Assembly: GCF_900107195.1 (NCBI RefSeq) | Contig: NZ_FNPB01000018.1 | Location: 1-49,838, forward strand | DNA length: 49,838 nt | Direction of reading: 5' to 3' | From: Halobellus clavatus | Lineage (GTDB): Archaea; Halobacteriota; Halobacteria; Halobacteriales; Haloferacaceae | Shown here: positions 8,545 through 49,838 of the stretch, piece after piece | Position numbering within the stretch: position 1 is the first letter of the stretch | Layout: every line of letters starts with the position of its first letter | Program-made: the position numbers and the translations under genes | Notes under the pieces: model-generated | What the model saw: the letters and a program-made list of their open reading frames with translations, nothing else | The model's database searches: none | Told to the model about the DNA's origin: nothing

Positions 8545-8632
8545 TCGCCGTCGGTGACCACCTCTCCCACTCGAGCGAACCGCCGCTCGGAGTCGGTGAG
8601 GCCGTCGCGCTGGACGACCTCGCGTCGACGCG

Positions 8633-8869
8633 CTAGTCCTCTCCGATGTACAGCGGCGAGTCCGTGGTCGGACACGATTCGCGCCCGCAGACACCGGCCT
8701 CGTCACCGGCGCGCTCGACCCCCGACGAGAGCCGGTGGAGTTCCCACGTCGCCTCGTGTCCGGTCTCTGATCGGTGGGTCTCGATGACCCCACGTGCAGC
8801 CGCGAGTTTCTCGAACGTCTCCCGCAGGCCGCACTCCGGACACGTAACCGTCGCGCGCTTCCGATTCAT
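8633..8869 (-). CDS. small zinc-finger protein (DUF7542-like)
   Basis: The 78-residue protein starts MNRKRATVTCPECGLRETF. It has a CxxC pair followed by two His (THRSETGHEATWEL), a C2H2-like metal site, and a second Cys pair near the C-terminus (GVCGRESCPTT). This fits a small haloarchaeal family I associate with DUF7542; its role is unknown. The ATG at 8869 follows a good TATA-like sequence on the minus strand (GTTAAGTAC), so the transcript is probably nearly leaderless. Confidence 0.6.
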   Translation of the reverse strand: MNRKRATVTCPECGLRETFEKLAAARGVIETHRSETGHEATWELHRLSSGVERAGDEAGVCGRESCPTTDSPLYIGED

Positions 8870-8894
8870 TGTCGGAACCACGCCCGAGACGTAC

Positions 8895-9227
8895 TTAACG
8901 CCGTGGTTCGTCCCACCGGCGGCTCTCAGCGCCGGCTGGGCTCCGGCTCTGTGTGACGCCTCTGTGATCGAGAGAGTCACACGTTCCATCGTCCGTGGCT
9001 ATCAGGTCGTGACGACGGAGTCGGTGATCGTCCCGACGGCGCGCCGCCCGGTACTCTTCGGCGGCCCGCGCAGCGCGCTCGGCCGTTTCGCGGTCCGGAA
9101 ACCGATGGCCGACAACGGGCACTGGCTGCACACCCGTCCGCGCACACACGACGGTGTACTCGCCAGCATCGGTCGCGAGCATCTCAATCTCGGTTCGGAG
9201 GGTCCTGAGAGAGGGAATCGGAGACAC
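8895..9227 (-). CDS. conserved small haloarchaeal protein (DUF7552-like)
   Basis: The 110-residue protein has a conserved N-terminal part, about residues 8-76: LRTEIEMLATDAGEYTVVCARTG, then VVGHRFPDRETAERAARAAEEYRAA and LRRHDLI. This pattern is common in a haloarchaeal family of unknown function (DUF7552-like, from memory). The last 35 residues are low in conservation and may be non-native extension. It lies 39 bases downstream of the cupredoxin lipoprotein gene on the same strand and could be the last gene of that transcript. Confidence 0.55.
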   Translation of the reverse strand: MSPIPSLRTLRTEIEMLATDAGEYTVVCARTGVQPVPVVGHRFPDRETAERAARAAEEYRAARRRDDHRLRRHDLIATDDGTCDSLDHRGVTQSRSPAGAESRRWDEPRR

Positions 9228-9266
9228 CTCGGCTCACACCGTAGTTGGGACCGGGCCGAGTGCCGT

Positions 9267-11759
9267 TCACTCGACGACGACAGTGCCAGTCATTCCGGCG
9301 GCCTCGTGGGGGATGCAGACGTACTCGTGGACTCCGGTTGTCTCGAAGGTGTGGACAAATGACTGGCCGGATTGGACCGCTCCGGTGCCATTCTCCCACC
9401 CGGACTCTGCGGCCGACTGCGACTCGAACCCACCAGAAGCCCAGTAGGTTGCACTGTCCGGCATTTCTTCTTCGTACGCCGTCACGGAGTGTGGTTCGCC
9501 GGCGCCGTGACTCCAGACTACTGTGTCGCCCTGTGAGACTGTGAGTTCGCTCGGCTCGAATGCCACTGCTTGCATCTCGATGATGTGGTCGGCGTCTTCG
9601 GGGATGCCTTCGACCACGTTCGGCCCACCCTGGAGAGCCGAACTGTCAACTCCCCCCGACGCTGATCCGTCGCCCGAGCCGCCGACTCCGCCAGCGAGAT
9701 CCAGACCGAGCGGGAGGTCCTCGACGGCGTCGACGAGCGCGAACTGCGCGTACTGGGACGCGTCGGCGAACGCTTCGGCGGCTGCATTCACGTTGCCGTC
9801 CTCGTCGAGTGCGGTAATGTAGGCGTTCAGTTGCGCCTCGAACGTCTGGTAGGCGTTCCGGTCGGCCTCCTCGACGAGTTCGTGGACGCGTGCCTCCTCG
9901 AAGTGCGCGAAGACACCCTGCAGTACTCTGTTTGCGGCCTCCCCGTGAGAGCCGCTGCCCCCACTCTCGCCGACGATGGCGTAGACTGATGCGACGGCCT
10001 CAGCGTTGAACCGGGTCGCGGCTGAGGAGACGTCCCTGCCGTTACCGGCAGCGTCGATGAGTGCCGACAACGCGGACTCGAAGGTCTCGTACTGCGATTC
10101 GTCGGCCTCCTCCAGTGCTTCGTGGTAGCCGCCCGCACCGGACTCGAAGTGCTGGAAAGCACTCTGTCCGATCGCTTGCGCTCGTGCGTCGTCACCCAAG
10201 GCGGCGAGGACTGAGGCGTCGAAGCCGCGGGCAGCCATATAGCCCGCTTCGGCACCGCTCACCGTTGCGTCCGAGCCGGCAGCCGTCTCGAACTCGAGAA
10301 GCGTCGACTGCACCCCCTCGTAGTGGGTGACAACCGCGTCGTCGTCACCGGCGCTGAAGGCGTCGATGAGGCCACTGAGGTGTTCCTCCTCGAAACTCGC
10401 ATACAGTTCCTCGCTGGTCGACTCCACAGTCTCGTGGAAGCCGAGTTCGTTCTCTTCGAAGCGCGCGAAGAGATCCTCGGCGATCGAGCCGGCGACCTCG
10501 CCCTCCCCACGGCGGTAGCGCTCCCGTGCGTCGGCGAACCGCGCCCGGAAGAATGCCGATTCGAGCAGCGGCGCGCTCGATCCCCCGAGCGCTTCGATCC
10601 CCGTTAGGAGGTTCGAGTCGACCGCCGCGAGCGCTTCGTCGGCACCGCTGGCATCGCCGGATTCGATTGCGGACTGAAGCGACGAGAGTCCGGATTCGAA
10701 GCCCTCGTACGCGTCCTCGTCTGCCGATTCGAGCGCCTCGTGGGCCCGGGCGCCCTCGAAGTGCGCGAAGACGTCTTGGACTATCGTCGACGCCCGGCCG
10801 GGCTCACCGACTGCCGCAAGCCAGCGGGCATCGTGGACGCGGGCCCGATAGATCGTGAGTCCCGCAGCGTGAGCGCCGTTCGTTGAGGATCCGCCCTCGC
10901 TGGCTAACGCGGCGGCATCCCAGCCGCGCGACTGAATCGCCGACAGGTGTCCAGTCCCGGCGTGGGTCTCCGTCGGCGCGACGACGTAGCTCCCCTCGAT
11001 AGCGGCGACGAACGCAGCCGCCGCCTCGCTTCGGACCCCCTCGACGTCCCCACTTCCGGCTGCGGCGACGACTCCATCGAGTGCGCTCTCTAAGCGGCCG
11101 TAGACATCGCCATCGGCAGATTCGAGCGCCTCGGAGGCCGATGACGCCTCGAAGCGACTCCGGACCGCTTCGGCGACAGTCCCAGCGCTCTCGACGTCGC
11201 CGACGGTGGCAGCCATTTCGGCGTTTTGTGCCGTGACGCCGAGCAGCTGGAGGTCGAGCGCGTCGGCGGTGGCGCCGTCGACGACCGTCCGCTGTGCCGA
11301 CGAGAGCGCATCGTCGGCGTCTATCGCCGCCTCGCGAGCGCGTTCGAGATTATCCGCGGCGAGTCCCTCGGTTCGGAGCGCGCCGAGTGCCTCCTCGAAC
11401 CCTTCGTAATTACTCTCCCCGGTCGATTCGAGCACCTCGTGGGCACCGTACTCGCCGGTCGCTCCCTCGAACCGCGCGAAGGTGTTCTGGACAACCTGCG
11501 AGCCCGATCCCGGCTCACCGGCGACACCGAATGCCAGCGCGTCCCACACCCGGGCTCGGTAGGCGTTCCACTCGGCGGCGACAGCTGCATTCGCCGTGAC
11601 CCCAACAGGATTCGACTTGCCCGTCTCGGTCCCAGTCTCGCTTTCGGAGCCCGTTTCGGTCGTCGTCCCAGTCGTTTGTAGGCTGCTACATCCTGCGAGG
11701 CCGAGCGTCGCCAATGCGGCCGCGCTGACCGATAACACGTCGCGTCTCTGCGGTGCCAT
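9267..11759 (-). CDS. DUF5059-type lipoprotein with C-terminal cupredoxin, probable iron/copper protein
   Basis: The 830-residue protein opens with a TAT-like/lipobox signal (MAPQRRDVLSVSAAALATLG then LAGC, Cys24). A Thr/Ser/Glu-rich tether and six helical repeats of about 100 residues follow. Each repeat has an F-x-x-F-E segment, and five of the six also carry HExxE (HEVLE, HEALE, HETVE, HEALE, HELVE). The last ~115 residues are a cupredoxin with a full type-1 copper set: His in GEPHSV, then Cys, His and Met in YVCIPHEAAGM. It should be anchored on the outer face of the membrane. A perfect 18-bp iron-box palindrome sits 2 bases before the ATG, and the gene lies next to an iron ABC transporter. 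A role in iron capture with copper-dependent redox, similar in idea to EfeO, is inferred. The repeats also contribute to the unusual length. Confidence 0.8.
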   Translation of the reverse strand: MAPQRRDVLSVSAAALATLGLAGCSSLQTTGTTTETGSESETGTETGKSNPVGVTANAAVAAEWNAYRARVWDALAFGVAGEPGSGSQVVQNTFARFEGATGEYGAHEVLESTGESNYEGFEEALGALRTEGLAADNLERAREAAIDADDALSSAQRTVVDGATADALDLQLLGVTAQNAEMAATVGDVESAGTVAEAVRSRFEASSASEALESADGDVYGRLESALDGVVAAAGSGDVEGVRSEAAAAFVAAIEGSYVVAPTETHAGTGHLSAIQSRGWDAAALASEGGSSTNGAHAAGLTIYRARVHDARWLAAVGEPGRASTIVQDVFAHFEGARAHEALESADEDAYEGFESGLSSLQSAIESGDASGADEALAAVDSNLLTGIEALGGSSAPLLESAFFRARFADARERYRRGEGEVAGSIAEDLFARFEENELGFHETVESTSEELYASFEEEHLSGLIDAFSAGDDDAVVTHYEGVQSTLLEFETAAGSDATVSGAEAGYMAARGFDASVLAALGDDARAQAIGQSAFQHFESGAGGYHEALEEADESQYETFESALSALIDAAGNGRDVSSAATRFNAEAVASVYAIVGESGGSGSHGEAANRVLQGVFAHFEEARVHELVEEADRNAYQTFEAQLNAYITALDEDGNVNAAAEAFADASQYAQFALVDAVEDLPLGLDLAGGVGGSGDGSASGGVDSSALQGGPNVVEGIPEDADHIIEMQAVAFEPSELTVSQGDTVVWSHGAGEPHSVTAYEEEMPDSATYWASGGFESQSAAESGWENGTGAVQSGQSFVHTFETTGVHEYVCIPHEAAGMTGTVVVE

Positions 11760-11761
11760 AT

Positions 11762-11779
11762 TTTTAGGCTAGCCTAAAA
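11762..11779. promoter_or_regulatory. perfect iron-box palindrome
   Basis: TTTTAGGCTAGCCTAAAA is a perfect 18-bp palindrome ending two bases before the lipoprotein start codon on the minus strand. It closely resembles the operators of DtxR-family iron regulators (Idr1/Idr2, SirR) described in haloarchaea. Its position at the start of a probably leaderless transcript fits a repressor site. Confidence 0.85.
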
Positions 11780-11798
11780 CAACTTAGTCGCTTCGATT

Positions 11799-11814
11799 TT
11801 TAGGTGGGCCTAAT
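11799..11814. promoter_or_regulatory. second iron-box palindrome
   Basis: TTTAGGTGGGCCTAAT keeps both half-sites TTAGG-N4-CCTAA, with a non-palindromic centre. It lies 20 bases beyond the perfect site and overlaps the stop codon of the ABC ATPase gene. Two sites in 53 bases suggest cooperative binding. Confidence 0.7.
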
Positions 11815-12715
11815 CCTCGTCGATCGCCCGGTGGGGGGCGATATGGGGTCCGGTCGGGGCGTCGCCGTCGACGCTGGCATCGACACGGAAGACGTCCGAG
11901 AGGAGTTCCTCGGTGACGACGTCTCGCGGCGGGCCCCAGTCGTACGGTTCACCGTCTTTCATCGCGACGAGGTTGTCGGCGAAGCGGGCGGCCTGCCCGA
12001 TGTCGTGGAGGACGACGCCGACGGTGACGCCCTGTTCGCGGTTGAGGGTCCGGATCACCTCCATCACGCGGAGCTGGTGGTGGAGATCTAGATACGTCGT
12101 CGGCTCGTCGAGGAGGAGCACGTCGGTCTCCTGTGCGAGGACCATCGCGATCCACGCGAGCTGTTTCTGGCCGCCGCTGAGGTTCTGCATCGTCTCGTTG
12201 CGCAGGTCTGCCACGCCCGCCAGTTCGATCGCACGCTCGACCGCCCGCCGATCGTCCGCCCCGACGGACTCGAAGAACCCCCGGTGGGGATACCGGCCGT
12301 GGTAGACGAGTTCCTCGACGGTGAGGCTGGCGGGGGAGTCGTGCTCCTGCGACAGGAGGCCGAGCCGCTGCGCCAGTTCCTTCGATTCGATCGACTGCAC
12401 CGCCTCGCCGTCGATGCGGACTCGTCCCGCCTCAGGGGTGAGCTGGTCGGCCATCGCCTTCAGCAGCGTGCTCTTGCCGCTGCCGTTCGGGCCGACGAGG
12501 GCGGTGACCTCGCCCGCGGGCAGGAGGACGGCTTCGCACTCGACGACCGGCTCGTCGGTCGTCGGGTAGCCGATCGCGAGTTTCTCGCCGCGGAGTTCGA
12601 CTGCGGATTTCCGCCTGTCGGCGGTGCCTCGCCCGGTCGCCCCGTTCGATTCAGGCGCTGGCTCGCTGCTCTCGCCGGTCGGATCCGTCCGTTCGAATCG
12701 GCCGTTGTCGTGCAT
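11810..12715 (-). CDS. iron/siderophore ABC transporter ATP-binding protein
   Basis: The 301-residue protein has all ABC ATPase motifs in order: Walker A GPNGSGKS (75-82), Q-loop Gln123, signature LSGGQ (179-183), Walker B VLLLDE (199-204) and switch His237. It belongs to the FepC/BtuD type that powers uptake of iron-siderophore or cobalamin complexes. The first ~38 residues form an acidic, unstructured extension. Its ATG shares one base with the stop of the permease gene (TGATG), so the two are translationally coupled. Iron boxes upstream of the operon support iron rather than cobalamin. Confidence 0.9.
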   Translation of the reverse strand: MHDNGRFERTDPTGESSEPAPESNGATGRGTADRRKSAVELRGEKLAIGYPTTDEPVVECEAVLLPAGEVTALVGPNGSGKSTLLKAMADQLTPEAGRVRIDGEAVQSIESKELAQRLGLLSQEHDSPASLTVEELVYHGRYPHRGFFESVGADDRRAVERAIELAGVADLRNETMQNLSGGQKQLAWIAMVLAQETDVLLLDEPTTYLDLHHQLRVMEVIRTLNREQGVTVGVVLHDIGQAARFADNLVAMKDGEPYDWGPPRDVVTEELLSDVFRVDASVDGDAPTGPHIAPHRAIDED

Positions 12716-13875
12716 CAGAGCTCACCGATATTCTGCTGCTTGCGCATAAGATAGAGGAAGTACGGGCCGCCGATCAGCCCGGTTACGACGCCGACGGGAA
12801 TCTGCACCGGGCTCAACGCGAGGCGCGCGCCGACGTCGGCGACGACCATCAGCGCTGGCCCCAAGAACACACAGCCGAGGAGCAATCGCCGGTAGTCGCC
12901 GCCGACGACGAGGCGCACGACGTGGGGGATGACGAGCCCGAAGAACCCGACGACTCCCGCGACCGCGATGGCCGCACTCGCCGCCAGAATGGCGACGCCC
13001 GACAGCAGGAACCGGATGCGCTCGACCTGCATCCCCAGCGAGCTGGCTGTCTGCTCGCCGAGCAGGAGGACGTTCAACTGCCGCGCAGCGGCGAGCGCGA
13101 AGACGACGGCGACCAGCGTCGGAACGAGGGCGATCCGGAACTGCTCCCAGCCGACGCCGGTGAGCGAGCCAGTGATCCACGCGATGGCAGATTGCACGGT
13201 TCCGAGGTCGTCGGCGAAGAAGAACAGCCCCCGTTGCAGCGACTGGAACACCATATTGACGATCACGCCGGCCAGGACGAGTCTGACCGGACTCGTCCCG
13301 TTCTTCCACGCGATGACGTACACCAGCAGGAACGCGATCGTTCCCCCGAGGGCCGCAACGAGCGGGAGCAGCGGCGAGAGGCTGCTGAACACGACGAGGG
13401 TCAGAAGCACCGCGAACCCCGCGCCGGAACTCACGCCCAGGATGAACGGACTCGCCAGTTCGTTGCGCGTGACGGCCTGGAAGATGGCTCCGGACACCGC
13501 GAGGCTCATCCCGACGAGCACCGCGACGAACACCCGCGGCAGTCGGATGTTCCAGACGATGAGGCTCCGACGGTTCATCTCGGGGAGTTCGGTGCCGAAC
13601 ACGAACGCCTGCCACGCCTCGGGGTCGAACACCACCTCCGGGTTGAACACGGCCTGCCACGCCTGGAGCGCGGACATCGAGTAGGAGCCGAAGCTCACCT
13701 GAATCAGGCCGCCGGCGACGACGACCAGCACGCTCCCGAGACAGAGCGTGACCAGCGCGCTGTCGACTACCCCGGGCCACCGGCTCGAACTGTCGGCGTC
13801 GGCGGTGATCGCTCGCTCGCTCGCCGTCATCGCCGTTCGGTTCGGCTCGTCCCGTTCGTCGGCCACCGCTCCCAC
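12715..13875 (-). CDS. iron/siderophore ABC transporter permease (FecCD family)
   Basis: The 386-residue protein is a polytopic FecCD/BtuC permease with a cytoplasmic acidic N-terminus (about 35 residues) and about nine to ten hydrophobic helices, including the family sequence SGAIFQAVTRNELASPFILGVSSGAGFAV and the later GxxxFxGLVIPHxxRL region (VGFFGLVIPHVVRLVVGG). It forms the membrane channel for the adjacent ATPase and binding protein. Start choice is uncertain: ATG at 13875 or 13830 (residue 16) both keep the first helix. It lies 25 bases after the binding-protein gene and overlaps the ATPase by one base. Confidence 0.9.
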   Translation of the reverse strand: MGAVADERDEPNRTAMTASERAITADADSSSRWPGVVDSALVTLCLGSVLVVVAGGLIQVSFGSYSMSALQAWQAVFNPEVVFDPEAWQAFVFGTELPEMNRRSLIVWNIRLPRVFVAVLVGMSLAVSGAIFQAVTRNELASPFILGVSSGAGFAVLLTLVVFSSLSPLLPLVAALGGTIAFLLVYVIAWKNGTSPVRLVLAGVIVNMVFQSLQRGLFFFADDLGTVQSAIAWITGSLTGVGWEQFRIALVPTLVAVVFALAAARQLNVLLLGEQTASSLGMQVERIRFLLSGVAILAASAAIAVAGVVGFFGLVIPHVVRLVVGGDYRRLLLGCVFLGPALMVVADVGARLALSPVQIPVGVVTGLIGGPYFLYLMRKQQNIGEL

Positions 13876-30430: not shown

Positions 30431-31918
30431 TTACGCTAAGAAGACGTGTCGCGGCCGGTCGGCGAGCACGTCGCGACCCCACTCGACGGTCTCGCTGAAG
30501 TCCTCCGAGCGGAAGAACGCCATCGCGTTCTCACGGGAGTCCCACTGGCTGGAGATGAACATGTCGTTCTCGTCTTCGACGTTCACGAGCAGGTCGGTCT
30601 CCTGGTGCCCGTCCATCTCCGCGAGGACCTCGCCGACGTCGTCGAACGTGTCGTGGAAGTTCTCTCGGTACTCCGACTTCACCGTGTAGAACATTCCCAT
30701 CGTTCCGAAGCCGGACTCTTCGCCGGCCCGAGAGACGATTCCGGGCAGTTCAGACAGGAATCCCGCGGCCGTCTCCGCGGCCGAAGCTGTGTCCCAGATG
30801 CTCACCACGGCGCTACGGTCCCGGTTGCGGGCCTCGTAGACCGCCGTCTTGACGTGCGTGCCGTAGTGCTCGAAGTTCCCGCGGAGCCCCTCGACCTCGT
30901 CGAACAGTTCGTCGGTGTCGGCCTCCGAGTACAGCACCGTCGCGTACACGTCTTCGCCGTGGGGCTGGCCGGCGTAGATGTCCATCTCGGACAGCTCCGC
31001 GCGGATGCTGTCTTCGTCTGCTCCCTCGCCGTCGTCGTCGTCGCCGTCGTCGCCGTCGTCGCCGTGGGAGTGCGCGCCGCCGTCGTCGCCGTGAGAGTGC
31101 GCGCCGCCGTGGGCGTGGGCCGACGCGCCGTCGTGTTCGCTCGTCGGGACCGCCTCTCCCTCCAGATATGCACCCAGGTCGGCGGGCGGGAAGCGGCGGC
31201 CGACGTAGAACTGGCCGAACTCCCCGTACTTCGAGGAGACTTCGTCGAAGCGCATGTCGTAGACGATGTCTTTGATGTGGGTCGGATCGTCCGAGAAGAG
31301 CGTCACGCCCCACTCGTAGTCGTCGAAGCCGACCGAAGACGCGATGACCTGCTTGATCTTCCCGGCGTACTCCTTGCCGGTCTCGGCGTGGGTCTCCATC
31401 ATCTCCGCGCGCTCCTCGAAGTCGATGTCGTACCAGTTGTGTTCTTCCCCGCGGCGCTTGGACATCGGGTAGAACGAGACGTACTCGTCGTCGGGGATCT
31501 CGGGCTGCAGTTTGCCCTCCATGTAGTTCTGGAGTCCCTGATCGACGGAATCGGGATCGTCGAAGTACTCCGGCGTCGAGTACCCCGAGATCTCCGTCAC
31601 GGAGACGTACGAGGTCGGCTGGGTGGTGAAGCCGGCCAGCGCGGTCCGCTCGAAGGCACGTTCGGCGCGCGAGAGGTCGTCGAGCGTCGGTCGGAAGTGT
31701 ACGACGAGGAGGTCGGCCTTGTGGCCGAGGACGGAGAAGACGGCTGATGCGCCCTCGTCGCTGTCGGCGACTTCCTCGTGTCTACGGAGGTGTTCCGTCC
31801 CTTCCGCGATCGCCCGCTCGCGCTCGTGCTCCGGCGCGTCGCGCCACGCGTCCCAATCGACGGTGCGGAAGTCGTGCAGTACGAACCAGCCCTCGTCTGT
31901 CGGTGGGGCCTCAGGCAT
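30431..31918 (-). CDS. pitA: PitA-type fusion: chlorite-dismutase/HemQ-like domain plus monooxygenase domain
   Basis: The 495-residue protein has a chlorite-dismutase/HemQ-like heme domain (about 8-250) with His177 in ETHAETGKEYAGK as the probable heme ligand and RRFPPADLG at its end. A His/Asp-rich linker (about 260-305, AHAHGGAHSHGDDGGAHSHG) joins it to an antibiotic-biosynthesis-monooxygenase (ABM) domain (about 310-495). The same domain order defines haloarchaeal PitA. A role in heme handling or coproheme decarboxylation is inferred from the family. The linker could bind metal. Upstream lies only a short gap before the GT2 gene, on the same strand. Confidence 0.88.
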   Translation of the reverse strand: MPEAPPTDEGWFVLHDFRTVDWDAWRDAPEHERERAIAEGTEHLRRHEEVADSDEGASAVFSVLGHKADLLVVHFRPTLDDLSRAERAFERTALAGFTTQPTSYVSVTEISGYSTPEYFDDPDSVDQGLQNYMEGKLQPEIPDDEYVSFYPMSKRRGEEHNWYDIDFEERAEMMETHAETGKEYAGKIKQVIASSVGFDDYEWGVTLFSDDPTHIKDIVYDMRFDEVSSKYGEFGQFYVGRRFPPADLGAYLEGEAVPTSEHDGASAHAHGGAHSHGDDGGAHSHGDDGDDGDDDDGEGADEDSIRAELSEMDIYAGQPHGEDVYATVLYSEADTDELFDEVEGLRGNFEHYGTHVKTAVYEARNRDRSAVVSIWDTASAAETAAGFLSELPGIVSRAGEESGFGTMGMFYTVKSEYRENFHDTFDDVGEVLAEMDGHQETDLLVNVEDENDMFISSQWDSRENAMAFFRSEDFSETVEWGRDVLADRPRHVFLA

Positions 31919-40287: not shown

Positions 40288-40732
40288 CGGTCGATTGCGA
40301 GAGTTTTGTGGTGTGCAGCCAAAAGCGTTCTATTTGCGCCGCGAGCGATTCACATTCGTCGATATCGATCGGTTTCACCAGATATGCGTTCGCGTGGTTC
40401 TGATACGCCGCCTCGATATCGTCCGATGCATCCGAACTCGTCAGCATCAGTACCGGGATCTGTTTCAATTCGTCGTCTGTCTTGATACGTTCGAGCACTT
40501 CGATCCCGGAGTGTCCGGGAAGGTTGAGATCGAGCAACACGAGTCCAGGGCGCGGCGCATCCGCGTACGGCGGCCGCTGTTCGAGGAATTTCAGCGCCTC
40601 TGCGCCATCGCTCACCCGGTGGAGGCGGCTGCCAGCGTCTGCAGAAAACCCCTCTTCGAGCAGTCGTGCGTCAGCCGGGTTGTCCTCGACGTGGAGTATC
40701 ACGGTCTCGGATCGGTTCGGTTCCTCAGTCAT
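40277..40732 (-). CDS. single-domain response regulator (receiver only)
   Basis: The 151-residue protein is a lone receiver domain with phospho-acceptor Asp68 (LVLLDLNLPG) and Lys120 (AYLVKPID), and no output domain. It resembles the Rcp1/CheY-like regulators that pair with phytochrome-like kinases. Its start overlaps the large kinase stop by 8 bases and its stop overlaps the next kinase by 11, so it is translated as a unit with both. It likely receives phosphate from the large kinase and passes it on. Confidence 0.9.
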   Translation of the reverse strand: MTEEPNRSETVILHVEDNPADARLLEEGFSADAGSRLHRVSDGAEALKFLEQRPPYADAPRPGLVLLDLNLPGHSGIEVLERIKTDDELKQIPVLMLTSSDASDDIEAAYQNHANAYLVKPIDIDECESLAAQIERFWLHTTKLSQSTDDI

Positions 40733-43700
40733 CGGTTGTTGCGTGTAGTGTGAAGTGGAACGTCGACCCCTCGCCTCGTTCGGATTCGACCCAGATATCG
40801 CCGCCGTGGCGATCGACTATTTTGCGACACATCGCCAGTCCGATTCCGGTGCCGGAGTACGATTCCCGGCCGTGGAGTCGTTCGAAGACCTGGAAGATCC
40901 GCTCGGTGTCTTTGGCCGTCATCCCGATGCCGTTGTCCTCCACGGCGAACGCCCACTTGTCGTCGGTTCGCTCTGCCGAGATGTGAACGCGCGGTTCCGT
41001 GTCGCCGGCGTATTTGATCGCATTGTCCAGCAGATTCTGGAGCAGTCGGACGAGTTGTTGTTCGTCACCCTGCACGGTGGGAAGTCTGTCGGCGGTGACT
41101 GTGGCGTTATTTTGGTCGATGGCCACTCGAAGGTTCTGGTGGGCCGTTTCATATACCTCGTCCATACTGGTCGGGCTGAGCGGGTCCCCACGCGTATCGA
41201 CTCGTGAATACTCGAGCAGCGCTTGGATCATCTCGGACATCCGTTCGGCCCCGTTCACGGCGAAATCGATGAACTCCTGCCCATCTTCATCGAAGTCGTC
41301 CCTGTACCGGCGCTCCAGTAACTGGAGGTAACTCGACACCGTCCGGAGGGGTTCCTGCAGGTCGTGCGAGGCGACGTAGGCGAACTGTTCCAGATCCTCG
41401 TTGGATCGTTCTAGTTTCGCACGGGTCTCCTGCAACGCCTGTTCGCGTTCCATCCGAAGCATCGCACTCGTGATAGTGGAACCAAACAACTCGAACAGCC
41501 CGATGTCCGTATCGCTGAACTCCTGTTCGGACACGGAGCCGGTTACAATCACGCCTTGGTCGCCGAGAGGGACAATGACCTCGGCGCGGATATCCGTGTC
41601 CGCATTGTACCGTCCTTGGACCGTCGAAACGTCCTCGAAGACGGCCTTTTCGCCCCGCTCGAACACCGTCCACGTGAGGCTACTCCCCGGTTCGTACCTG
41701 GGCGACGAGCCGAGCAGGTCTCGCGCCGCTGGCGTCTCGCTGATCGGGATCAGCGCCTCCTGTTGCTCGTCGTACGACCAGATCCCCGTTATTTCGAGAC
41801 CGAGTATCTCCTCAGCAGATTCGACAGCGACGTCGCCAACCTCATCAATCGAGTCCGCTTCCATCAGTTCCCCGGCGACCTCCTGAAGGTCACGGAGTTT
41901 TTCCTCCAGACGATTCTGCGCCAACTCGTACCCGGCCCACTGAACAAGGAGTTCGACGAACGCTTGTTCTGATTCGGTGAACGAGTACTCGCGGCTCTCG
42001 CTGCCGGCAAAGCACAGGGTCCCGTACAGTTCCTCGTTGACGACGACTTTTCCCCCGAGATAACAACCGAGGCTGAACCGTTCGTATGCCGGATCGGACG
42101 CAAATCCTTCGTCGACAGCATCCTGCACGCCGAGTAATCCGTTCCGCTGAATTGTCTTGCGACAGTACGCCTCCGAAAGCGGGCCAGATGCGCCCGTCTG
42201 AAGAAGATCGTGAGACCCCACCGCCTCGACGATGTACTGCGTATCGTCGTCGATCCGTGTTAGAAAGGCAAACGGGAGACCGAGGCGCTCGCGGCCGAGT
42301 TCGAGGATCTGGTTGAGTTTCTCTTCGAACGACAGGTCTGTATCGGACGTGATCCGGTATAGATCACGGAGCGATCGCTCACTTTCACGGAGTCCACGGA
42401 GTGCCTCTTTACGTTCGGTGACGTCGTTGAGAAACGCCACCACCTCGATGAGATCGCCGTCGGCATCGTACAAGGGCACTGACGATAGCGTCACGTCGAC
42501 CCGTGTTCCGTCTTTGGTCCGACGCTGGAGTTCGACCTTCGAAAACGATTCTCCGTTGAACGCACGCTCTCTGAGTTCGTCGTGACCGTCCCGCTTCTCG
42601 TCCGGAATCACGGGGTTGAATTCGCCAAGGACTTCCGATTCGGACCAGCCAAAGATCTCTTCGGCGGCCGAGTTCCAGAGCGTAACCTCACCGGTGGGAT
42701 CGATCGCGATAATCGCCACGGGTGCAGCCTCGATGAACGATTCGAGTCGGTCTGAGACGTCTCTGAGTTCCCGTTCCCGTCGTCGCCGATCGGTGATGTC
42801 CGTCACGGTGAGGATGGCTTCGCCCTGCGTTCCCGGCCCGGTGACCGGCATCGTCCGCGCCCAGAGGTGCCGCTTTTCGCCGTCGACTTGTACCGTACAC
42901 TCACTCTCGGTCTCTTCGGAGATCGACTTCTCCGCGAGTTCATCCCTGAGCACCGACTGGAGCGACTCACCGACCGGGGCGTCTACCTCGGGGCGGAGGC
43001 ACACCGATGCACGACCCGCGGGGTTCGTCTCGACGATCCGCCCGTCAGCATCGATAACGAAGACGGCGTCGTCGAGCGACTCGACGAGTCGCTGCCTCGC
43101 AATCGGAACGACATCGAGTAACTGGTATCGGAAGACACCAACCGCTAGCACGGTCGTACCGAGAGCGAACCCCAGCGGCGTCAGATCGATATACGCCGGT
43201 CCGACGCCACTGACCACTGTCAAGTTCACTGCCCACGGAACGAGTGTCCCGACGACGATGGCCGCGGTTTGTGCCCTATACAGCCTGTTGGAGGCAACGG
43301 CGAACCGCAGCAACAGGACGGTTGCCACGAGGAAGAGCACGTACGAGTACGCTAGGTGGATCCAAAACGCGTAGCCGGCGTTTGCCGCCGTCCAGGCCAG
43401 TAGTGACAGCTCTCCCACCTGTGTGAGGCCGACGCCTTCGTAGAACAGCCCGTGATCACCGTTCGTCGCCAGCGCGACGAGCGTAAACACGGGATGTACG
43501 CAGAGCGCGGCGAGCACCGGCCGAGATACCCATTCGTGCCGTCCGGTGAACCGGAGCGCGAACACGAGGAACGCGGCTGGAAGAATCACGAGTCCAGCGT
43601 ATCCCACGAACTCCCAGAGCAGTTTCGTGTCCAACTCGGGGGCTATTAGTCGGGCCGAAAACGCAATCGTCGTCAGCGCGATTGCCCCGACAACGGCGCC

Positions 43701-43823
43701 AAACGCCCGCTCGGTCGGACCGTCCCGGTGTCGCCAGAGCACATACCCGGTGAGCGTGACCGTACTTACCGCTGCGAGCACATATCCAGCGATGGCGAAG
43801 AGCAGGTAACTCGGCAGCGCCAT
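40725..43823 (-). CDS. sensor histidine kinase with 7TM N-terminus, two PAS and two GAF domains
   Basis: The 1032-residue protein begins with about seven membrane helices (1-230, the histidine-kinase N-terminal 7TM type). Two PAS domains (about 250-360 and 375-490) and two GAF domains (about 505-655 and 665-800) follow. HisKA has phospho-acceptor His820 in ASHDLQEPLRTV, and an ATPase domain ends the protein, with NLLDNAIKYAG, VEDNGIGM and GTGIGLAMC. The kinase core is of the phytochrome-like group. It may sense a light, redox or small-molecule signal; no chromophore cysteine is certain. The ATG at 43823 (MALPSYLLFAIAGY) starts the membrane region; an in-frame ATG at 43892 adds 23 residues of doubtful value. 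Confidence 0.9.
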   Translation of the reverse strand: MALPSYLLFAIAGYVLAAVSTVTLTGYVLWRHRDGPTERAFGAVVGAIALTTIAFSARLIAPELDTKLLWEFVGYAGLVILPAAFLVFALRFTGRHEWVSRPVLAALCVHPVFTLVALATNGDHGLFYEGVGLTQVGELSLLAWTAANAGYAFWIHLAYSYVLFLVATVLLLRFAVASNRLYRAQTAAIVVGTLVPWAVNLTVVSGVGPAYIDLTPLGFALGTTVLAVGVFRYQLLDVVPIARQRLVESLDDAVFVIDADGRIVETNPAGRASVCLRPEVDAPVGESLQSVLRDELAEKSISEETESECTVQVDGEKRHLWARTMPVTGPGTQGEAILTVTDITDRRRRERELRDVSDRLESFIEAAPVAIIAIDPTGEVTLWNSAAEEIFGWSESEVLGEFNPVIPDEKRDGHDELRERAFNGESFSKVELQRRTKDGTRVDVTLSSVPLYDADGDLIEVVAFLNDVTERKEALRGLRESERSLRDLYRITSDTDLSFEEKLNQILELGRERLGLPFAFLTRIDDDTQYIVEAVGSHDLLQTGASGPLSEAYCRKTIQRNGLLGVQDAVDEGFASDPAYERFSLGCYLGGKVVVNEELYGTLCFAGSESREYSFTESEQAFVELLVQWAGYELAQNRLEEKLRDLQEVAGELMEADSIDEVGDVAVESAEEILGLEITGIWSYDEQQEALIPISETPAARDLLGSSPRYEPGSSLTWTVFERGEKAVFEDVSTVQGRYNADTDIRAEVIVPLGDQGVIVTGSVSEQEFSDTDIGLFELFGSTITSAMLRMEREQALQETRAKLERSNEDLEQFAYVASHDLQEPLRTVSSYLQLLERRYRDDFDEDGQEFIDFAVNGAERMSEMIQALLEYSRVDTRGDPLSPTSMDEVYETAHQNLRVAIDQNNATVTADRLPTVQGDEQQLVRLLQNLLDNAIKYAGDTEPRVHISAERTDDKWAFAVEDNGIGMTAKDTERIFQVFERLHGRESYSGTGIGLAMCRKIVDRHGGDIWVESERGEGSTFHFTLHATTDD

Positions 43824-43923
43824 CAGTCCCGTGCCCCTGCCGAACGCCTGTCTGTAGCCGACTCTGCCACGGCGGGGCACCGAGACTGACAACCGATCTC
43901 GGGAACTGCTAGGGAGCCAATCC

Positions 43924-44814
43924 TCACGCTGTATCCTCTGTTACGATCGGGCGGAGGGCGCTTTCTGGCACCTCGTCTATCTCGGCTTCGAGTTCCTCGA
44001 TACGGGTGATAAGGCGTCTGTATTCCTCGTTTTCGTCACGGTCTTGGTACCCCAGTTCAGTCTTGAGAAGTGCCTGCTTCGACCGGAGGGCGAGATACTC
44101 CCGGACCAGTGCATCGTGCTCTCGACGGTCCAGAACCGTGTTTACGACGTCCAGAAGCTCTGATCTGTCTGTCGGCTTCGTGAGATACTCGTCGAAATCG
44201 AGAGCAACGATATCAGTGTCAGGGTCCTGTGAGGTCAGTAACACGATCCGGCAGTCGAGATTGTTCTGTCGGATCCACTCGACCAGTTCGTCACCCGACA
44301 GACCGGGCATTCGACGGTCGAGAACCACTAGATCAACATCGTCGTCGAATGCCTTGATCGTCTCGTCCCCGTCGTAGGTGACTCGAACGTCGTAGTCAGG
44401 TTCGAGCCACTCGCTGTGCATCTCCGCGAGTCGCCTGTCGTCGTCCGCAACGAGCACAGTTGGCGGGCCCACGTCTTCGGCAAGGTGTCGTTCCCCCCAG
44501 TCCACCAGCGACTGAATAGTGGCCTGGAGTTCCTCGCCTTTGGGAGTCAGCGAGTATTCGACACGGAGCGGACTCTCGCTGATCACCCGCCGTTCGACGA
44601 GGCCCGTCTCCTGCAGTTCGTCCAGCGCGTCAGTCAGGACCTTCGCAGAAATCGGCTCTAGCCGCGTCTGAAGGTCGTTGAACCCCAATGAACCGGAATC
44701 GAGCAACAATCGAATAATGACCGGATACCACTTCTTCGAGATGAGGTTGGCTGCCTCAGCGAGGTACTTGTTCTCGTCTGCTGACCCATCAGACGAGCGA
44801 TCCGACCTAGTCAT
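43924..44814 (-). CDS. HxlR-REC-HalX fusion transcription regulator
   Basis: The 296-residue protein joins an N-terminal HxlR-type winged helix (about 15-110: KWYPVIIRLLLDSGSLGFNDLQTRL ... LVERRVISESPLRVEYSLTPKGEEL), a receiver domain (118-228, Asp166, Lys213) and a C-terminal HalX helical domain (about 230-285). The DNA-binding domain is thus before the receiver, the opposite of most bacterial regulators. It should bind DNA under control of a kinase; HalX-REC proteins of haloarchaea usually lack a DNA-binding domain. The start at 44814 (MTRSDRSSDGS) is preferred to an in-frame ATG at 44838. It lies 48 bases downstream of the next receiver gene on the same strand. Confidence 0.85.
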   Translation of the reverse strand: MTRSDRSSDGSADENKYLAEAANLISKKWYPVIIRLLLDSGSLGFNDLQTRLEPISAKVLTDALDELQETGLVERRVISESPLRVEYSLTPKGEELQATIQSLVDWGERHLAEDVGPPTVLVADDDRRLAEMHSEWLEPDYDVRVTYDGDETIKAFDDDVDLVVLDRRMPGLSGDELVEWIRQNNLDCRIVLLTSQDPDTDIVALDFDEYLTKPTDRSELLDVVNTVLDRREHDALVREYLALRSKQALLKTELGYQDRDENEEYRRLITRIEELEAEIDEVPESALRPIVTEDTA

Positions 44815-44862
44815 ACCAATACTAGTTCTTCCCCTCATTAAACAGTACCGCGGAACGCGAAC

Positions 44863-45333
44863 CTACTGCACCCAGAAATCGGTCAACGCTTCGAGAGCGG
44901 ATAGATACTCGTCGACGTCTGTTGGTTTGGACACGTATGCGTTCGCACCGAGTTCGTACGCACGGGTGATGTCTTTCTCCATAGTGGATCCCGAGAAGAT
45001 GACCACCGGAATGGCTCGCAGTTCGTCGCTCGATTTGATCCGTGCCAGAATGTCGAATCCGTCGACTCCGGGCATATTCAAGTCTGACAAGATGAGCGCG
45101 GGCGAGACCACCTCTCCCCGACGGATCTGTGCGAGGAGATCAGGAATCTCGCGACTGCTCCGCAGACACAATACGTCGGCGTCGAGACCGGCGAACGCCT
45201 CCTCGAAGAGTCGAACGTCTCCGGGATTATCCTCCACGACGAGGACATCGGCGTCGCCCGTTTCGTCCGCGATGTCCAGTGGCTCAACCGGGGGATGCGA
45301 TGGGCCACGACTCCCGAGTCGGCGGAACGTCAT
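44863..45333 (-). CDS. single-domain response regulator (receiver only)
   Basis: The 156-residue protein is a receiver with phospho-acceptor Asp84 (LILSDLNMPG), a Lys in VSKPTD and a ~25-residue N-terminal lead (MTFRRLGSRGPSHPPVEP). It has no output domain. The sequence form (VVEDNPGDVRLFEEAF, IFSGSTMEKDI) is that of haloarchaeal Rcp1-like regulators. An in-frame ATG at 45411 is possible but adds Arg/Ser-rich sequence. It is the first gene of the minus-strand signalling group and faces the fibre-like operon across a 582-base gap. Confidence 0.85.
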   Translation of the reverse strand: MTFRRLGSRGPSHPPVEPLDIADETGDADVLVVEDNPGDVRLFEEAFAGLDADVLCLRSSREIPDLLAQIRRGEVVSPALILSDLNMPGVDGFDILARIKSSDELRAIPVVIFSGSTMEKDITRAYELGANAYVSKPTDVDEYLSALEALTDFWVQ

Positions 45334-45619
45334 CGGGGCCCCGATCGACGGACACCAGAGACGTTCGCACTGGCCGCCCCGGCGGCTAGTCGCCGGAGAC
45401 GGTCGCTCCACAGCTGCAGAGTACTATGGAGACTCCGCCGTGGTGCCCTCGGGACGGGCCCGCGTGCTGACTCTGTCCCTGCGCGCTTGGTATCGATCCG
45501 TTCGTCAGTGTTCCCCGGACCGGCAGGGTCGGTGTGTTGCTTCACGGGGGTCTTGGTGCCTATTGCACTAAGCTGTCGTTTCACGCTTAATTCCGCGCCA
45601 ACCGATCGGTAACGAGCGT

Positions 45620-45835: not shown

Positions 45836-45897
45836 CACTCACCGTCCGGTAAGTGCCCCTGCAAACCTATCGGTTAGGTTATACTTATGCGTGAATA
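45836..45897 (+). promoter_or_regulatory. promoter with palindrome and shared TATA-region motif (fibre-like operon)
   Basis: CACTCACCGTCCGGTAAGTG (45836-45855) is a palindrome with 16 of 20 symmetrical positions. Exactly 35 bases after its start begins CGGTTAGGTTATACTTATGC (45871-45890), followed by GTGAATA, which resembles the promoter at 48863. The start codon is 45 bases beyond the motif start. The AT-rich TTATACTTA probably holds the TATA box. Confidence 0.7.
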
Positions 45898-45915: not shown

Positions 45916-46521
45916 ATGGCAAAACCCATCCCCACCCTGTTGGTGGCAGGCCTGCTGCTGGTCGCCACCGTCACCTTCGGAGCGAGTGCATTCACCGCGG
46001 CAACGGTCGACCGTTCGGCAGACGTTAACGTTGCTACCGATAGCAGCGGGCTGCTGGCGCTCACCGACGGGAACTCCGGTAACCTGGTTTTCCAGGACGG
46101 AAGTACCGAACAGCTTAGCATCGACTTCACCAACGGCACGGCGACCGGTGCCAACGTCAATGCGACGTTCGAACTCGGTGACCCCGCCAACCCGACAACC
46201 TCGAACGCATTCAAGATCACGAACCAAGACAATGAACAGCACCAGATCAACGTCAAATACACCGGCGCAACCACGAACACTGAAGAAAACCTGAACTTCA
46301 GTATCTACGACAGTAACGGCCTCGTCGACTCGGTCACTGAAGAGGGGACCACGGCTTCGTTCACTGCGCCCGCTACCAAAACGTTCTACGTCGTCGTGAC
46401 GGTTGATACCGGTGGCGGGGCTGGGACGGCCGATCTGACGTCGGCGTCTGACCTCTCCGGAGAGCTTTCGTTTACCATCGACGACGTGGACAACGGCGGC
46501 GCTAACTCCGACGGCAGCTAA
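45916..46521 (+). CDS. secreted DUF1102-like (TasA/camelysin-like) protein
   Basis: The 201-residue protein has an N-terminal hydrophobic signal (about 8-24) followed by an SipW-style mature start, SAFTAATVDRSADVNVATDSS. The rest is a Thr/Ser/Asn-rich beta-sandwich pattern with several N-X-S/T sites and ends in an acidic tail. The N-terminal motif AFTxxxxDRxxxV recurs in the third operon gene. It is upstream of a dedicated signal peptidase, as tasA and abpA-type genes are. I infer an extracellular, possibly fibre-forming protein; no structure-defining motif proves it. Confidence 0.7.
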   Translation: MAKPIPTLLVAGLLLVATVTFGASAFTAATVDRSADVNVATDSSGLLALTDGNSGNLVFQDGSTEQLSIDFTNGTATGANVNATFELGDPANPTTSNAFKITNQDNEQHQINVKYTGATTNTEENLNFSIYDSNGLVDSVTEEGTTASFTAPATKTFYVVVTVDTGGGAGTADLTSASDLSGELSFTIDDVDNGGANSDGS

Positions 46522-46585
46522 GCCGAACTGAGTTTTCACCGCGCATCGCACGCTGATCACACTTTCGGACACAATACTCAAACAT

Positions 46586-47662
46586 ATGTACAAAAAGGCT
46601 GGACTCGTCGTCATCGTCGCTGTGACGCTTGCGCTCCTCGCTCCAGCCACCTCACCCGTTCAGATTTCGTACGTGACCTCCGACAGTATGGAGCCGGCGA
46701 TCCAGACGAACGACGGCTACATTCTGGTTCCCCCTGGTGAGGTCATCCCGGGTGAGATCGTTACGTACTATTCCGACGAACGCGACGGCTACGTCACTCA
46801 TCGCGTCGTAGGGACGACGGCAGACGGCTTTCTCACGCAAGGGGACGCCAACCCGACGACCGATCAGGCAGCCGGAAACCCGCCGGTCGAGCGCAGCGCG
46901 ATTATCGGCCAGGTGTTCACCATCGGTGGCCAGCCGGTTCTGATCCCGCAGTTGGGCGTTGTTCTCGGACTCGTTCGCGCCAACTGGATGCTGTTGTTCA
47001 CTCTGATGAGCCTGTCGGTGATCGTGGGCGTGCTCCGCGGTGAATCCGATCGCCCTCGGGACAGCAAGGAGTCGGCCCTGCAGAGCCGAGAGATCGTTAT
47101 CCCAACGATTCTGGTGGCGATCTTCGTCAGTGTGCTCTTGATCTCGTCGGGTGCGGTCCACACGGAACTGACGTACTCGGTCACCGAAACCGGGACGGAT
47201 AACCCCCAAGTACTCGCCGTCGGCGAGAGCACGACGACCTCTCTGGATGCCAATATCGTCAGTACGCCGCTGACACAGGTACTCACCGATACAGAAGGGA
47301 TCGTCATCACTGATACTACCATTGCGGAACCCAGTGCGGCAGCGGACCAAGGCCAGTCTGGAGCGCTCGACTCGCTTCGAGAGCCGCTCATCACCCGGTC
47401 AAGTACGACCCTCAGTGCCACTGTCCCTGCGCAGGCAGAACCGGGAAGTCACACGGCTCGGATCAGTCTGTACCCTTACCCTGCCACCCTGCCCAGAGGG
47501 ACCCTCGAGCAACTCCAGTCGATCCATCCGTGGCTGGCCGCACTGGGCTCAGTACTCGTGATCTTCCTCCCGGTCTACACGCTGTATTGGCTGCTGATCG
47601 ATACGACTGCGCCGATCAGAGGTTCGCGCAGCCGCTGGCTCCGCCGACTGGGTGATCGCTGA
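46586..47662 (+). CDS. signal peptidase I (Sec11/SipW-like) with extracellular C-terminal domain
   Basis: The 358-residue protein has an N-terminal membrane helix (5-22) and the archaeal/ER-type signal peptidase motifs: TSDSMEP with catalytic Ser34, THRVVG with His72, and TQGDANPTTD with Asp87. This is the S26B (Sec11/SipW) class. After about residue 165 there is an extra part: a membrane helix (IVIPTILVAIFVSVLLISSG), an outward beta-rich domain of ~140 residues and a C-terminal helix (about 318-340). The extension is uncommon in general Sec11 and may fit a dedicated substrate. Its stop overlaps the next ATG by one base. Confidence 0.9.
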   Translation: MYKKAGLVVIVAVTLALLAPATSPVQISYVTSDSMEPAIQTNDGYILVPPGEVIPGEIVTYYSDERDGYVTHRVVGTTADGFLTQGDANPTTDQAAGNPPVERSAIIGQVFTIGGQPVLIPQLGVVLGLVRANWMLLFTLMSLSVIVGVLRGESDRPRDSKESALQSREIVIPTILVAIFVSVLLISSGAVHTELTYSVTETGTDNPQVLAVGESTTTSLDANIVSTPLTQVLTDTEGIVITDTTIAEPSAAADQGQSGALDSLREPLITRSSTTLSATVPAQAEPGSHTARISLYPYPATLPRGTLEQLQSIHPWLAALGSVLVIFLPVYTLYWLLIDTTAPIRGSRSRWLRRLGDR

Positions 47663-48528
47663 TGGGACGCCGTCGCTCCCGATCGCGGGGCTCGGATGGC
47701 CGGTCGATCTGGACTGTTCTGGGCGTCGTCCTCCTGCTGGTGACGGCTCCAGTCGGATTCGGCCTCAACACCACCACTGATGCGTTCACGAGTCTGTCGG
47801 CTGACCGTGGCTCGTCGGTCGACGTGGCCGACGATACCGGCAGCATCTTCGGTCTCGACGTTGCCCCGAGCGTGGCGGCGGGTACGACCGACCGGCTTGT
47901 CACCGTCACCAACAACGCTGGCCAGACCATCAACTTCACCGTCGCTGCACACACAGGGACCGTCTCGAACAGCCAAGCCACGCTCCAGCCGAAGGAGTCT
48001 CTCGTCGTGTCGGTTGACGTTGCGTGCAGCGCACGCGCGGACAGCGTTTCGTTCACTGTTGAGGGGACAGCTGGCGACCGCTTTAGCGGGAAGACGACTC
48101 GCTCGACAACCATCGGCACGAGTAACTGTGGGGCAGGACCAGCCCCCATCACTAGCGGCGACTCGTCCGCTGGCGGGTCGAACGGGAAAGGCAGCTTCAC
48201 GCTTCAGAACGCGAAATCAACGTCACTCACTATCGTGGCGATCAACTTCACGGACACCAATTCGTCCGCGACAAAAATTTCGAATTCCGGCGCCCTCACC
48301 TCGAACCGGTCCTTCGAGTACAGTGACGGCGCCTTCTCGTTCGGCACGAAAGTCGATCTGACGACGAACCAGACGCTGGCCCCCGGAGAGACTGTCGAAG
48401 TGACCGCCGACAAATTCAGAAAGCAGGGCGGATCGCCAAACGTCGATATGACGGGGAAGTACGTCGAGTTCGTCCTCTATCTCAGCAGCGGAGAGCAGGT
48501 CACGGTGCGAGTCACGTTCCCTCAGTGA
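47662..48528 (+). CDS. second secreted DUF1102-like protein
   Basis: The 288-residue protein begins with an Arg/Ser-rich stretch, a hydrophobic signal (about 17-34) and then the motif DAFTSLSADRGSSVDVADDTG, the same motif as the first operon gene. The mature part has a beta-strand pattern with NNAGQTINFTV, two cysteines (VDVACSARADS, TSNCGAG) and a Gly/Ser-rich hinge. Start and stop overlap the peptidase gene by one base (TGATG). Order and pairing (substrate, peptidase, substrate) resemble tapA-sipW-tasA. Function is inferred. Confidence 0.7.
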   Translation: MGRRRSRSRGSDGRSIWTVLGVVLLLVTAPVGFGLNTTTDAFTSLSADRGSSVDVADDTGSIFGLDVAPSVAAGTTDRLVTVTNNAGQTINFTVAAHTGTVSNSQATLQPKESLVVSVDVACSARADSVSFTVEGTAGDRFSGKTTRSTTIGTSNCGAGPAPITSGDSSAGGSNGKGSFTLQNAKSTSLTIVAINFTDTNSSATKISNSGALTSNRSFEYSDGAFSFGTKVDLTTNQTLAPGETVEVTADKFRKQGGSPNVDMTGKYVEFVLYLSSGEQVTVRVTFPQ

Positions 48529-48909
48529 TGGGCCGGCCAACCGAAAGAAGACGCTGTGTCCTTTCCGCAGGCGAACCGCCTGAGACGGTTGCGCGTCACT
48601 CCAAACGCAGTCCGCCTGCGTGACGCAGTGAACGGTGACTGTCAAACGGTCGCCGTCGCGATCGACGATAGGCGGCGTAAGCCACTGCCCATCCGACGGA
48701 CGAAACTATCGCAGTGCTGAAAGGGACCCGAGTAATCGCACTTCACCGTGTGAGGGACGCTCGTGTCTGTCTTCATACAATCCGACGGTCGTGTGTCACA
48801 GCGCCCGTCGATTCCCGGTATGTAAGCCACTTACCGGCCGGTAACCGGCGATGAAAAGCGATCGGTTAGCTCGTACTTATGGGCGAATAAGGCGAACGGA
48901 TAGATATCT
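48529..48909. other. intergenic region with a promoter palindrome
   Basis: Between the operon end and the DUF5305-like gene lie 381 bases with no convincing gene. The left part is GC-rich with small inverted stretches; the right end carries the palindrome at 48828 and the TATA-region motif. No RNA gene is evident. Confidence 0.6.
48828..48889 (+). promoter_or_regulatory. promoter with palindrome and shared TATA-region motif (DUF5305-like gene)
   Basis: CACTTACCGGCCGGTAACCG (48828-48847) contains the perfect 14-bp palindrome TTACCGGCCGGTAA. Exactly 35 bases after its start begins CGGTTAGCTCGTACTTATGG (48863-48882), followed by GCGAATA, which matches the motif at 45871. The start codon is 47 bases beyond the motif start. 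Confidence 0.7.
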
Positions 48910-49521
48910 ATGAATTCGCAATCGGAATCTGTTCTCCGGCTCAAATATATACTCAGCCGGTACGGAACGCTCGTCATCGTCGGCTTACTGCTGGTGAGTA
49001 CTGTCGCCTTCGCGAGTACGGCCTTCGCGTACGGTGAATCGCCGGAGATACGGCAGATCACCGAACAGACGGACAAACAGTCGTTCGAGACGACGGTGAA
49101 TACGAGCGCCGCAGTGACGGAGAACACGACCCTGTATGAACCCAATCAGACGCTCTCGAATATGCCGGTCTATCTGCTCTCTGCCTCGCCAAACGTCACG
49201 ATAAGCGCTCAGACAGCGGTCCCCGACGATCGCGCCGTAGCGGTCACCCACCAGATCAGCATCAAACTCTATGCGACCCGAGGTGACGACGTGTTCTGGA
49301 GCGAGACGAGAACGCTCGCGAGCGACTCGGTGCAGGTCACCGACGGACGTCTCGAAACGCAGGCGACGATCGACGTTCGCGAGATCCGAAGTGGGCGATT
49401 GAACGAGGTGCAGTCGGAAGTGCAGAATATCGGGAACCTCCGCGCCGAGATTTACGTCGACACGGTGTACGAGTCAGAGAAGCATTCGTCTTTAGCTAAG
49501 ACTCACACCTCGGTTGCGTAG
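48910..49521 (+). pseudogene. DUF5305-like gene, truncated by an insertion sequence
   Basis: The frame encodes 203 residues, of which about 191 appear native. There is an N-terminal membrane helix (about 19-40, LVIVGLLLVSTVAFASTAFA), then an extracellular domain with repeated NVTISAQ/VTHQISIKL strands matching the haloarchaeal DUF5305 family. The last 12 residues, beginning at codon 192 (49483), come from the insertion sequence end, and the expected C-terminal membrane helix is missing. DUF5305 genes often lie near archaeal signal peptidases, which fits the preceding operon. Whether the truncated protein is made is unknown. Confidence 0.7.
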
Positions 49522-49838
49522 CGGTAGCGAGCGTCTCTTGCAGGATCGGTCGTTGTTGGTGGATCTTCTGTGCGTCTTCGATCAGTCGCTCCAGCAGTGG
49601 CGGTGGCGAGTAGCCGAGGAACTCGCCGAGTTCGTGGAGGATGAGCTGGGCGTGCGACCGGAAGGTCGCCGCCCAGCGTTCCGGCGGAAACACGATTTCA
49701 TCGGCGGCCTGCTCGGTGACCAGACCCAACAGATCACGACTCACCAGCAGTGACAGCAACGCCGCGTACAACAGAATCTTCACGACATCCGGGTCGCTCG
49801 TGTCGAACTTGTCCAGTTCGTACTGTGTCTTCAGCTCA
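49483..49838 (-). mobile_element. right end of an ISH8-like (IS4 family) insertion sequence
   Basis: From about 49483 (CATTCGTCTTTAGCTAAGAC) the sequence changes from the DUF5305-like gene to a transposase on the minus strand that runs off the window. The boundary is inferred from where the protein similarity ends; the target-site duplication cannot be checked because the left end is outside the window. Confidence 0.75.
49496..49838 (-). CDS. IS4-family (ISH8-like) transposase, C-terminal part (partial)
   Basis: The frame stays open from the window edge to a TAG at 49496. It encodes ELKTQYELDKFDTSDPDVVK followed by a helical region and the sequence DEIVFPPERWAATFRSHAQL, which is typical of the C-terminus of haloarchaeal ISH8-group transposases. 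The conserved Glu of the DDE triad is probably in the outside part. Length in the window is about 113 residues of an expected ~400. It disrupts the preceding DUF5305-like gene. Confidence 0.8.
   Translation of the reverse strand, partial: ELKTQYELDKFDTSDPDVVKILLYAALLSLLVSRDLLGLVTEQAADEIVFPPERWAATFRSHAQLILHELGEFLGYSPPPLLERLIEDAQKIHQQRPILQETLATATQPRCES

Follow-up and report, generated by a model that had tools for sequence, protein, structure and literature searches.

A conserved four-gene haloarchaeal operon with a dedicated S26B signal peptidase, probably for assembly of a Sec-routed fibre related to the Tat-fimbriae

Introduction

The closest known relatives of the locus analysed here are the Tat-fimbriae ('tafi') of Haloarcula, whose core component is TafA (Galeva et al. 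2025, iScience 28:111793, as cited in PMC12687288); a literature search on TafC/TafE and tafi returned a citing paper alone. A second point of comparison is the tapA-sipW-tasA operon of Bacillus subtilis, in which the dedicated ER-type peptidase SipW processes TasA, a protein with Phe at P2' (PMC10269814), and TasA filaments are started by TapA, which combines an Ig domain with a flexible N-terminus (PMC10151520). Solved structures used for comparison are the bundling pilus of Pyrobaculum calidifontis (AbpA, 7UEG), a fibre resembling TasA, and 9P0A, chain C of which is annotated 'Pilin' and has the sequence of a haloarchaeal-type Tat pilin. In TasA, TapA and Pyrobaculum bundling pili, the freed N-terminus acts by donor-strand completion. 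The locus was proposed in a preliminary description as a possible archaeal TasA-like fibre system, and was compared here with each of these systems.

Locus organisation and interruption of the fourth gene

The window is the entire contig C14 (49,838 nucleotides) of a 3.75-Mb haloarchaeal genome (G000). The operon comprises four genes, encoding a secreted protein E (g1), an S26B signal peptidase (SP, g2), a second secreted protein C (g3) and a DUF5305 membrane protein D (g4) (Table 1). Three tightly packed plus-strand genes had been reported previously, and that report is confirmed; g1 and g2 lie 64 bp apart, and g2 and g3 overlap by 1 nt (TGATG). As an account of the whole operon it was incomplete, in that the conserved DUF5305 gene was overlooked, as were the promoter element common to g1 and g4 and the IS insertion described below.

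Table 1. Features of the operon and its surroundings (positions in the window)
Feature	Position	Strand	Description
g1 (E)	45916-46521	+	201 aa; Sec-type signal, cleavage zone GASAFT, mature protein all-beta; candidate major fibre subunit
g2 (SP)	46586-47662	+	358 aa; S26B signal peptidase with membrane and extracellular C-terminal extension
g3 (C)	47662-48528	+	288 aa; second secreted protein, AFT...DR motif; Ig-like and second domain
g4 (D)	48910-49482	+	5' half of DUF5305-family gene; listed ORF extends to 49521 into IS sequence
HxlR-REC-HalX regulator	43924-44838	-	Pfam domains; divergent from operon; candidate regulator
Response regulator	44863-45411	-	stand-alone receiver domain; divergent from operon
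Palindrome CTCACCGTCCGGTAAG	45838-45853	.	TTACC-N4-GGTAA type, upstream of g1; likely operator
Promoter element ATCGGTTAGGTTATACTTATG	45869-45889	+	upstream of g1
Palindrome CTTACCGGCCGGTAAC	48830-48845	.	upstream of g4
Promoter element ATCGGTTAGCTCGTACTTATG	48861-48881	+	upstream of g4
IS element end	49483-49838	-	inverted repeat CATTCGTCTTTAGCTAAGA; transposase-like 3' end at 49496-49837; contig end

A recent IS insertion splits g4 in this assembly. The remaining half of the gene lies at the end of contig C19 (G000:C19:708396-708950), matches DUF5305 (PF17231) at 94.7 bits (cut-off 29). Its reading frame continues that of the half in the window; the joined protein has 422 aa, and 212 of 403 aligned residues are identical to the intact D of locus L090. 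One IS element has its two ends on the two contig ends, where the inverted repeats are nearly identical and are flanked by an 11-bp target duplication (AGTCAGAGAAG); copies or parts of this IS occur at five places in the genome, several of them at contig ends. The interruption is concluded from the IS ends on both contigs, the duplication and the in-frame junction; since g4 is interrupted, the four-gene system may be non-functional in this strain. Elsewhere, at 3310-7128 of L037, a DUF5305-family ORF encodes 1272 aa, which is three to four times as long as usual.

Signal peptidase and conservation of the operon

The middle gene had been assigned to the S26B peptidases with Ser34, His72 and Asp87 as catalytic residues. 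This assignment holds: g2 matches the archaeal signal peptidase I model TIGR02228 (NCBIfam) at 58.6 bits, above the cut-off of 51.85, and the three residues are invariant across eight homologues of 36-41% identity, so that g2 has both the model score and the Ser-His-Asp set by which archaeal S26B signal peptidases are recognised. It also matches SEC11C/SEC11A and, weakly, the SipW model NF046067 (1.8e-5). The C-terminal membrane/extracellular extension noted earlier exists, but it is common to the whole subfamily and is therefore not unusual, contrary to what had been supposed.

Against 392 genomes of the order, the peptidase profile gave a bimodal distribution of scores among the matches listed: approximately 30 genomes reached at least 276 bits, a single one scored 223 and the others did not exceed 194; in a 393-genome sample of the phylum, peptidase matches at 1e-60 all fell within the same order. 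Thirty-four high-scoring (window-type) loci from eight haloarchaeal families were then picked by peptidase score alone, so that gene order in them is an independent result. E, SP and D were found in the same order and on the same strand in all 34, with C between SP and D in 33 (the exception, L040, being the sole locus without C). Gene order in relatives, the absence of which had been named in advance as evidence against a fibre system, is thus conserved. A contig search returned a single locus, from a Haloarcula MAG (L002).

In the peptidase tree, 20 Taf-type enzymes lie on one side of a long branch with 100/99 support. Locus L116, initially classed as Taf-type, sits within the window-type part of the tree and has the order E-SP-D-C.

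Homology and predicted fold of the secreted proteins

Both secreted proteins are remote homologues of tafi components. For g1, the TafE model of NCBIfam is matched at 1.5e-5, and TafE matches were found in 14 of 33 E homologues (best 1.7e-7); for g3, TafC is matched at 1.3e-6, and 17 of 27 C homologues have TafC matches (best 1e-18). The matches of g1 and g3 are significant but far below the curated equivalog cut-offs. Profile-profile comparison (hhalign) linked the E family to Taf-type subunits at 99.7%, and E to C through a mature N-terminal motif in common at 96.5%.

PDB sequence searches with single proteins gave no match. The E-family profile gave a full-length match to the solved pilin 9P0A at 8.2e-6, in an alignment that includes the signal-peptide region; the aligned 9P0A sequence carries a twin-arginine signal and closely resembles a Taf-type protein in L043, and is thus Taf-type rather than window-type. 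AbpA was out of reach of the E sequence profile. No match to PF12389 (camelysin/Peptidase_M73) was found in g1, g3 or any of the 33 E homologues, one of which gave a weak Pilin_N match.

An AF2 model of mature g1, built from a 33-sequence alignment, is all-beta (pLDDT 80.8) with its first seven residues disordered. A jelly-roll fold of the TasA/camelysin type had been anticipated, with AbpA as a further structure for comparison. When the model was compared with 350,542 PDB chains, the sole match at E<=0.001 was AbpA (7UEG), a weak one (TM 0.44, 11% identity), and TasA was absent from the top 50 structural matches.

In the model of mature g3 the first domain is confident (pLDDT mostly 90-98 over mature residues 20-110) and the second is poor. 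The model matches generic Ig-like proteins, including the pilus chaperones FaeE, CsuC and Caf1M, for which reason a chaperone-usher reading of g3 was weighed. It was rejected on the TM of about 0.3, the poorly modelled second domain and the length of many C homologues, which at merely 160-185 aa are too short for a second domain; the modelled similarity to pilus chaperones is treated as generic Ig-like. As previously noted, one of the secreted proteins contains two cysteines: g3 has exactly two, Cys122 and Cys156, and a pair with a constant 34-residue spacing recurs in the long-form C of 12 loci (the window, L035, L036, L090, L091, L093, L094, L096-L098, L102 and L114). The conserved pair probably forms a disulfide.

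Export route and cleavage signature

The starts of type AFTxxxxDRxxxVxVA previously seen after the hydrophobic signals are present in both proteins (AFTAATVDRSADVNVA in g1, AFTSLSADRGSSVDVA in g3), and an aromatic residue occupies the SipW-type position after the signal peptide in 33 of 34 E proteins. Signal types were assigned as motif calls, not with SignalP. On these calls, g1 and g3 are without a Tat motif and their signals look Sec-type; the twin-arginine motif occurs in 23 of 26 Taf-type E proteins versus 3 of 34 of the window type. The Sec-type operon has kept both the dedicated peptidase and the AF(T/S) signature at the cleavage site.

Exceptions in export route are distributed by clade, with Tat-type E in L101/L105/L106 and in L116, and Tat-type C in L111/L114, where E is Sec-type. 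Placed on the peptidase tree, the motif calls suggest at least three switches of export route. Whether the export route of fibre operons can alternate between Sec and Tat within one superfamily, sometimes for just one of two co-operonic subunits, while the private peptidase and the aromatic signature stay fixed, is a proposition for which we judge the chances evenly balanced; if true, the pair of peptidase and cleavage site, not the translocon, would set fibre identity.

Promoters and candidate regulators

The promoter sequence TCRGTTAGNTNNTACTTAT occurs exactly twice in the 3.75-Mb genome, in the g1 promoter and at 48862 before g4. The palindrome motif is matched 8 times in the window, where 0.96 matches would be expected, with palindromic sites at 45622, 45838 and 48830, and similar palindromes precede E or D in several relatives. 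The HxlR-REC-HalX regulator is the sole full-length match in its own genome; relatives of it lie close to the operon at seven other loci, the match in some cases being confined to the HxlR/REC part. That it binds the TTACC-N4-GGTAA palindrome is offered as a guess. Large kinases are common in haloarchaea, and those beside many loci were for this reason rejected as conserved neighbours; in the window, a 7TM-PAS-GAF histidine kinase is encoded at 40725-43892, divergent from the operon. The gene at 30434-31918 encodes a fusion of a chlorite dismutase-like domain and an ABM monooxygenase domain.

Comparison with known systems

The operon shares with the tafi the E, C and S26B peptidase families (and, in L058, DUF5305), and the homology of the subunits is remote but clear. 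Two relatives have TafA above the NCBIfam cut-off, and their clusters hold E, TafA, C and an S26B peptidase; the DUF5305 gene accompanies them in L058. The operon differs from the tafi in its Sec-type signals, where tafi subunits have Tat signals, in its compact and fixed E-SP-C-D order, and in the separate grouping of its peptidase. No TafA match above the NCBIfam cut-off was found in G000, the best being on contig C18 (41.7 bits against a cut-off of 190), where a further Taf-like cluster combines Tat-type proteins with an S26B peptidase and a DUF5305 gene. Beside that cluster, at 1370-3073 of L033 (G000:C18), a secreted protein of 567 aa is encoded in which a TTNKQIK...SKNGQIQLK repeat recurs many times in near-identical form; is it a repetitive fibre or adhesin?

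With tapA-sipW-tasA the operon shares a dedicated ER-type peptidase and an aromatic residue just past the cleavage site (PMC10269814), and likewise a major and an accessory secreted protein, the gene of the accessory protein overlapping the peptidase gene in both (PMC10151520). A parallel between g3 and TapA may be drawn by analogy. The operon differs in lacking a camelysin/M73 sequence link, in its extra DUF5305 gene and in gene order. The proposal of a TasA-like fibre system is accordingly retained in part: the conserved operon, the dedicated S26B peptidase, two secreted proteins with a common SipW-like signature and the 7UEG fold match stand, but membership of TasA/camelysin by sequence does not.

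Discussion

The operon probably encodes a four-gene fibre-assembly system, a Sec-routed variant of the tafi superfamily. In the proposed mechanism, the fibre would be built mainly of g1, with g3 in an accessory role as initiator, cap or anchor. The two would be exported as precursors in which an aromatic residue closely follows the signal peptide, a site that would suit cleavage by the private S26B peptidase g2. The freed N-terminus (FTxxxxDRxxxVxV) would then serve as the donor strand completing the beta-sandwich of the next subunit, and the membrane protein g4 may anchor or organise the fibre. We know of no chaperone or usher for such a system, and assembly is assumed to be spontaneous or platform-assisted.

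This reading is favoured because the E-SP-C-D order is kept in 33 of 34 loci, E is homologous to Taf subunits and 9P0A, C homologues match TafC (17 of 27) and TafA clusters hold the same families; because g1 is modelled as all-beta with a disordered N-terminus and matches 7UEG; and because of the aromatic cleavage position (33 of 34), the E/C motif and the g1/g4 promoter unique in the genome. Counting against it are the weakness of the 7UEG match, the position of TasA outside the top 50, the lack of PF12389 matches, TafE and TafC matches below cut-offs, the inclusion of the signal-peptide region in the 9P0A alignment and the interruption of g4.

Of the alternatives, the one that survives best, though we consider it unlikely, is a complex, either soluble or associated with the S-layer, that has its own peptidase. 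In it, g1 and g3 would be secreted Ig-like/beta proteins acting without polymerisation (for example in sensing, adhesion or glycan binding) and held in place by the DUF5305 protein. Generic beta-sandwiches, carbohydrate-binding modules among them, make up many of the PDB matches of the models, the prediction for g3 is poor in its C-terminal half and two-component genes adjoin the operon, all of which would suit such a complex. Homology of E to Taf-type subunits and to a solved pilin, the N-terminal motif that E and C have in common and a pilus as the best fold match of g1 argue instead for polymerisation.

A direct orthologue of tapA-sipW-tasA, with g1 as TasA/camelysin and g3 as TapA, is very improbable. 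The weak SipW-like match of the peptidase, the aromatic cleavage site, the overlap of accessory and peptidase genes, as in tapA-sipW (PMC10151520), and the confident Ig-like domain of g3 are outweighed by the missing Peptidase_M73 match in g1, g3 and all E homologues, on which direct TasA/camelysin membership is rejected, and by the different gene order, the DUF5305 gene and the sequence ties to TafE/TafC; the present data lean to E being closer to Taf than to camelysins. The genome's sole PF12389 match is elsewhere, on contig C15, in a cluster of Tat-signal camelysin-like proteins (L034, G000:C15:148000-164000, approximately 8054-13710), two of them with von Willebrand-like insertions (DxSxS, metal-site), where no window-type peptidase match was found. 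A type IV pilus or archaellum-like system, hinted at by the weak Pilin_N match in one of 33 E homologues, is refuted by the S26B (not prepilin) peptidase and the all-beta mature protein, and has neither a class III signal nor an assembly ATPase in the operon.

Haloarchaeal fibres outside the type IV class have been described only recently, and as Tat-dependent. As a Sec-routed fibre operon, the system would be a compact sister to these, conserved in eight haloarchaeal families, and its four genes would form a minimal set for testing what the peptidase, the accessory subunit and the as yet unstudied DUF5305 protein do. It would connect archaeal fimbriae with the SipW/TasA principle known from the fibres of bacterial biofilms, and its natural Sec/Tat swaps would help to address the question of why Tat serves for some surface proteins of archaea.
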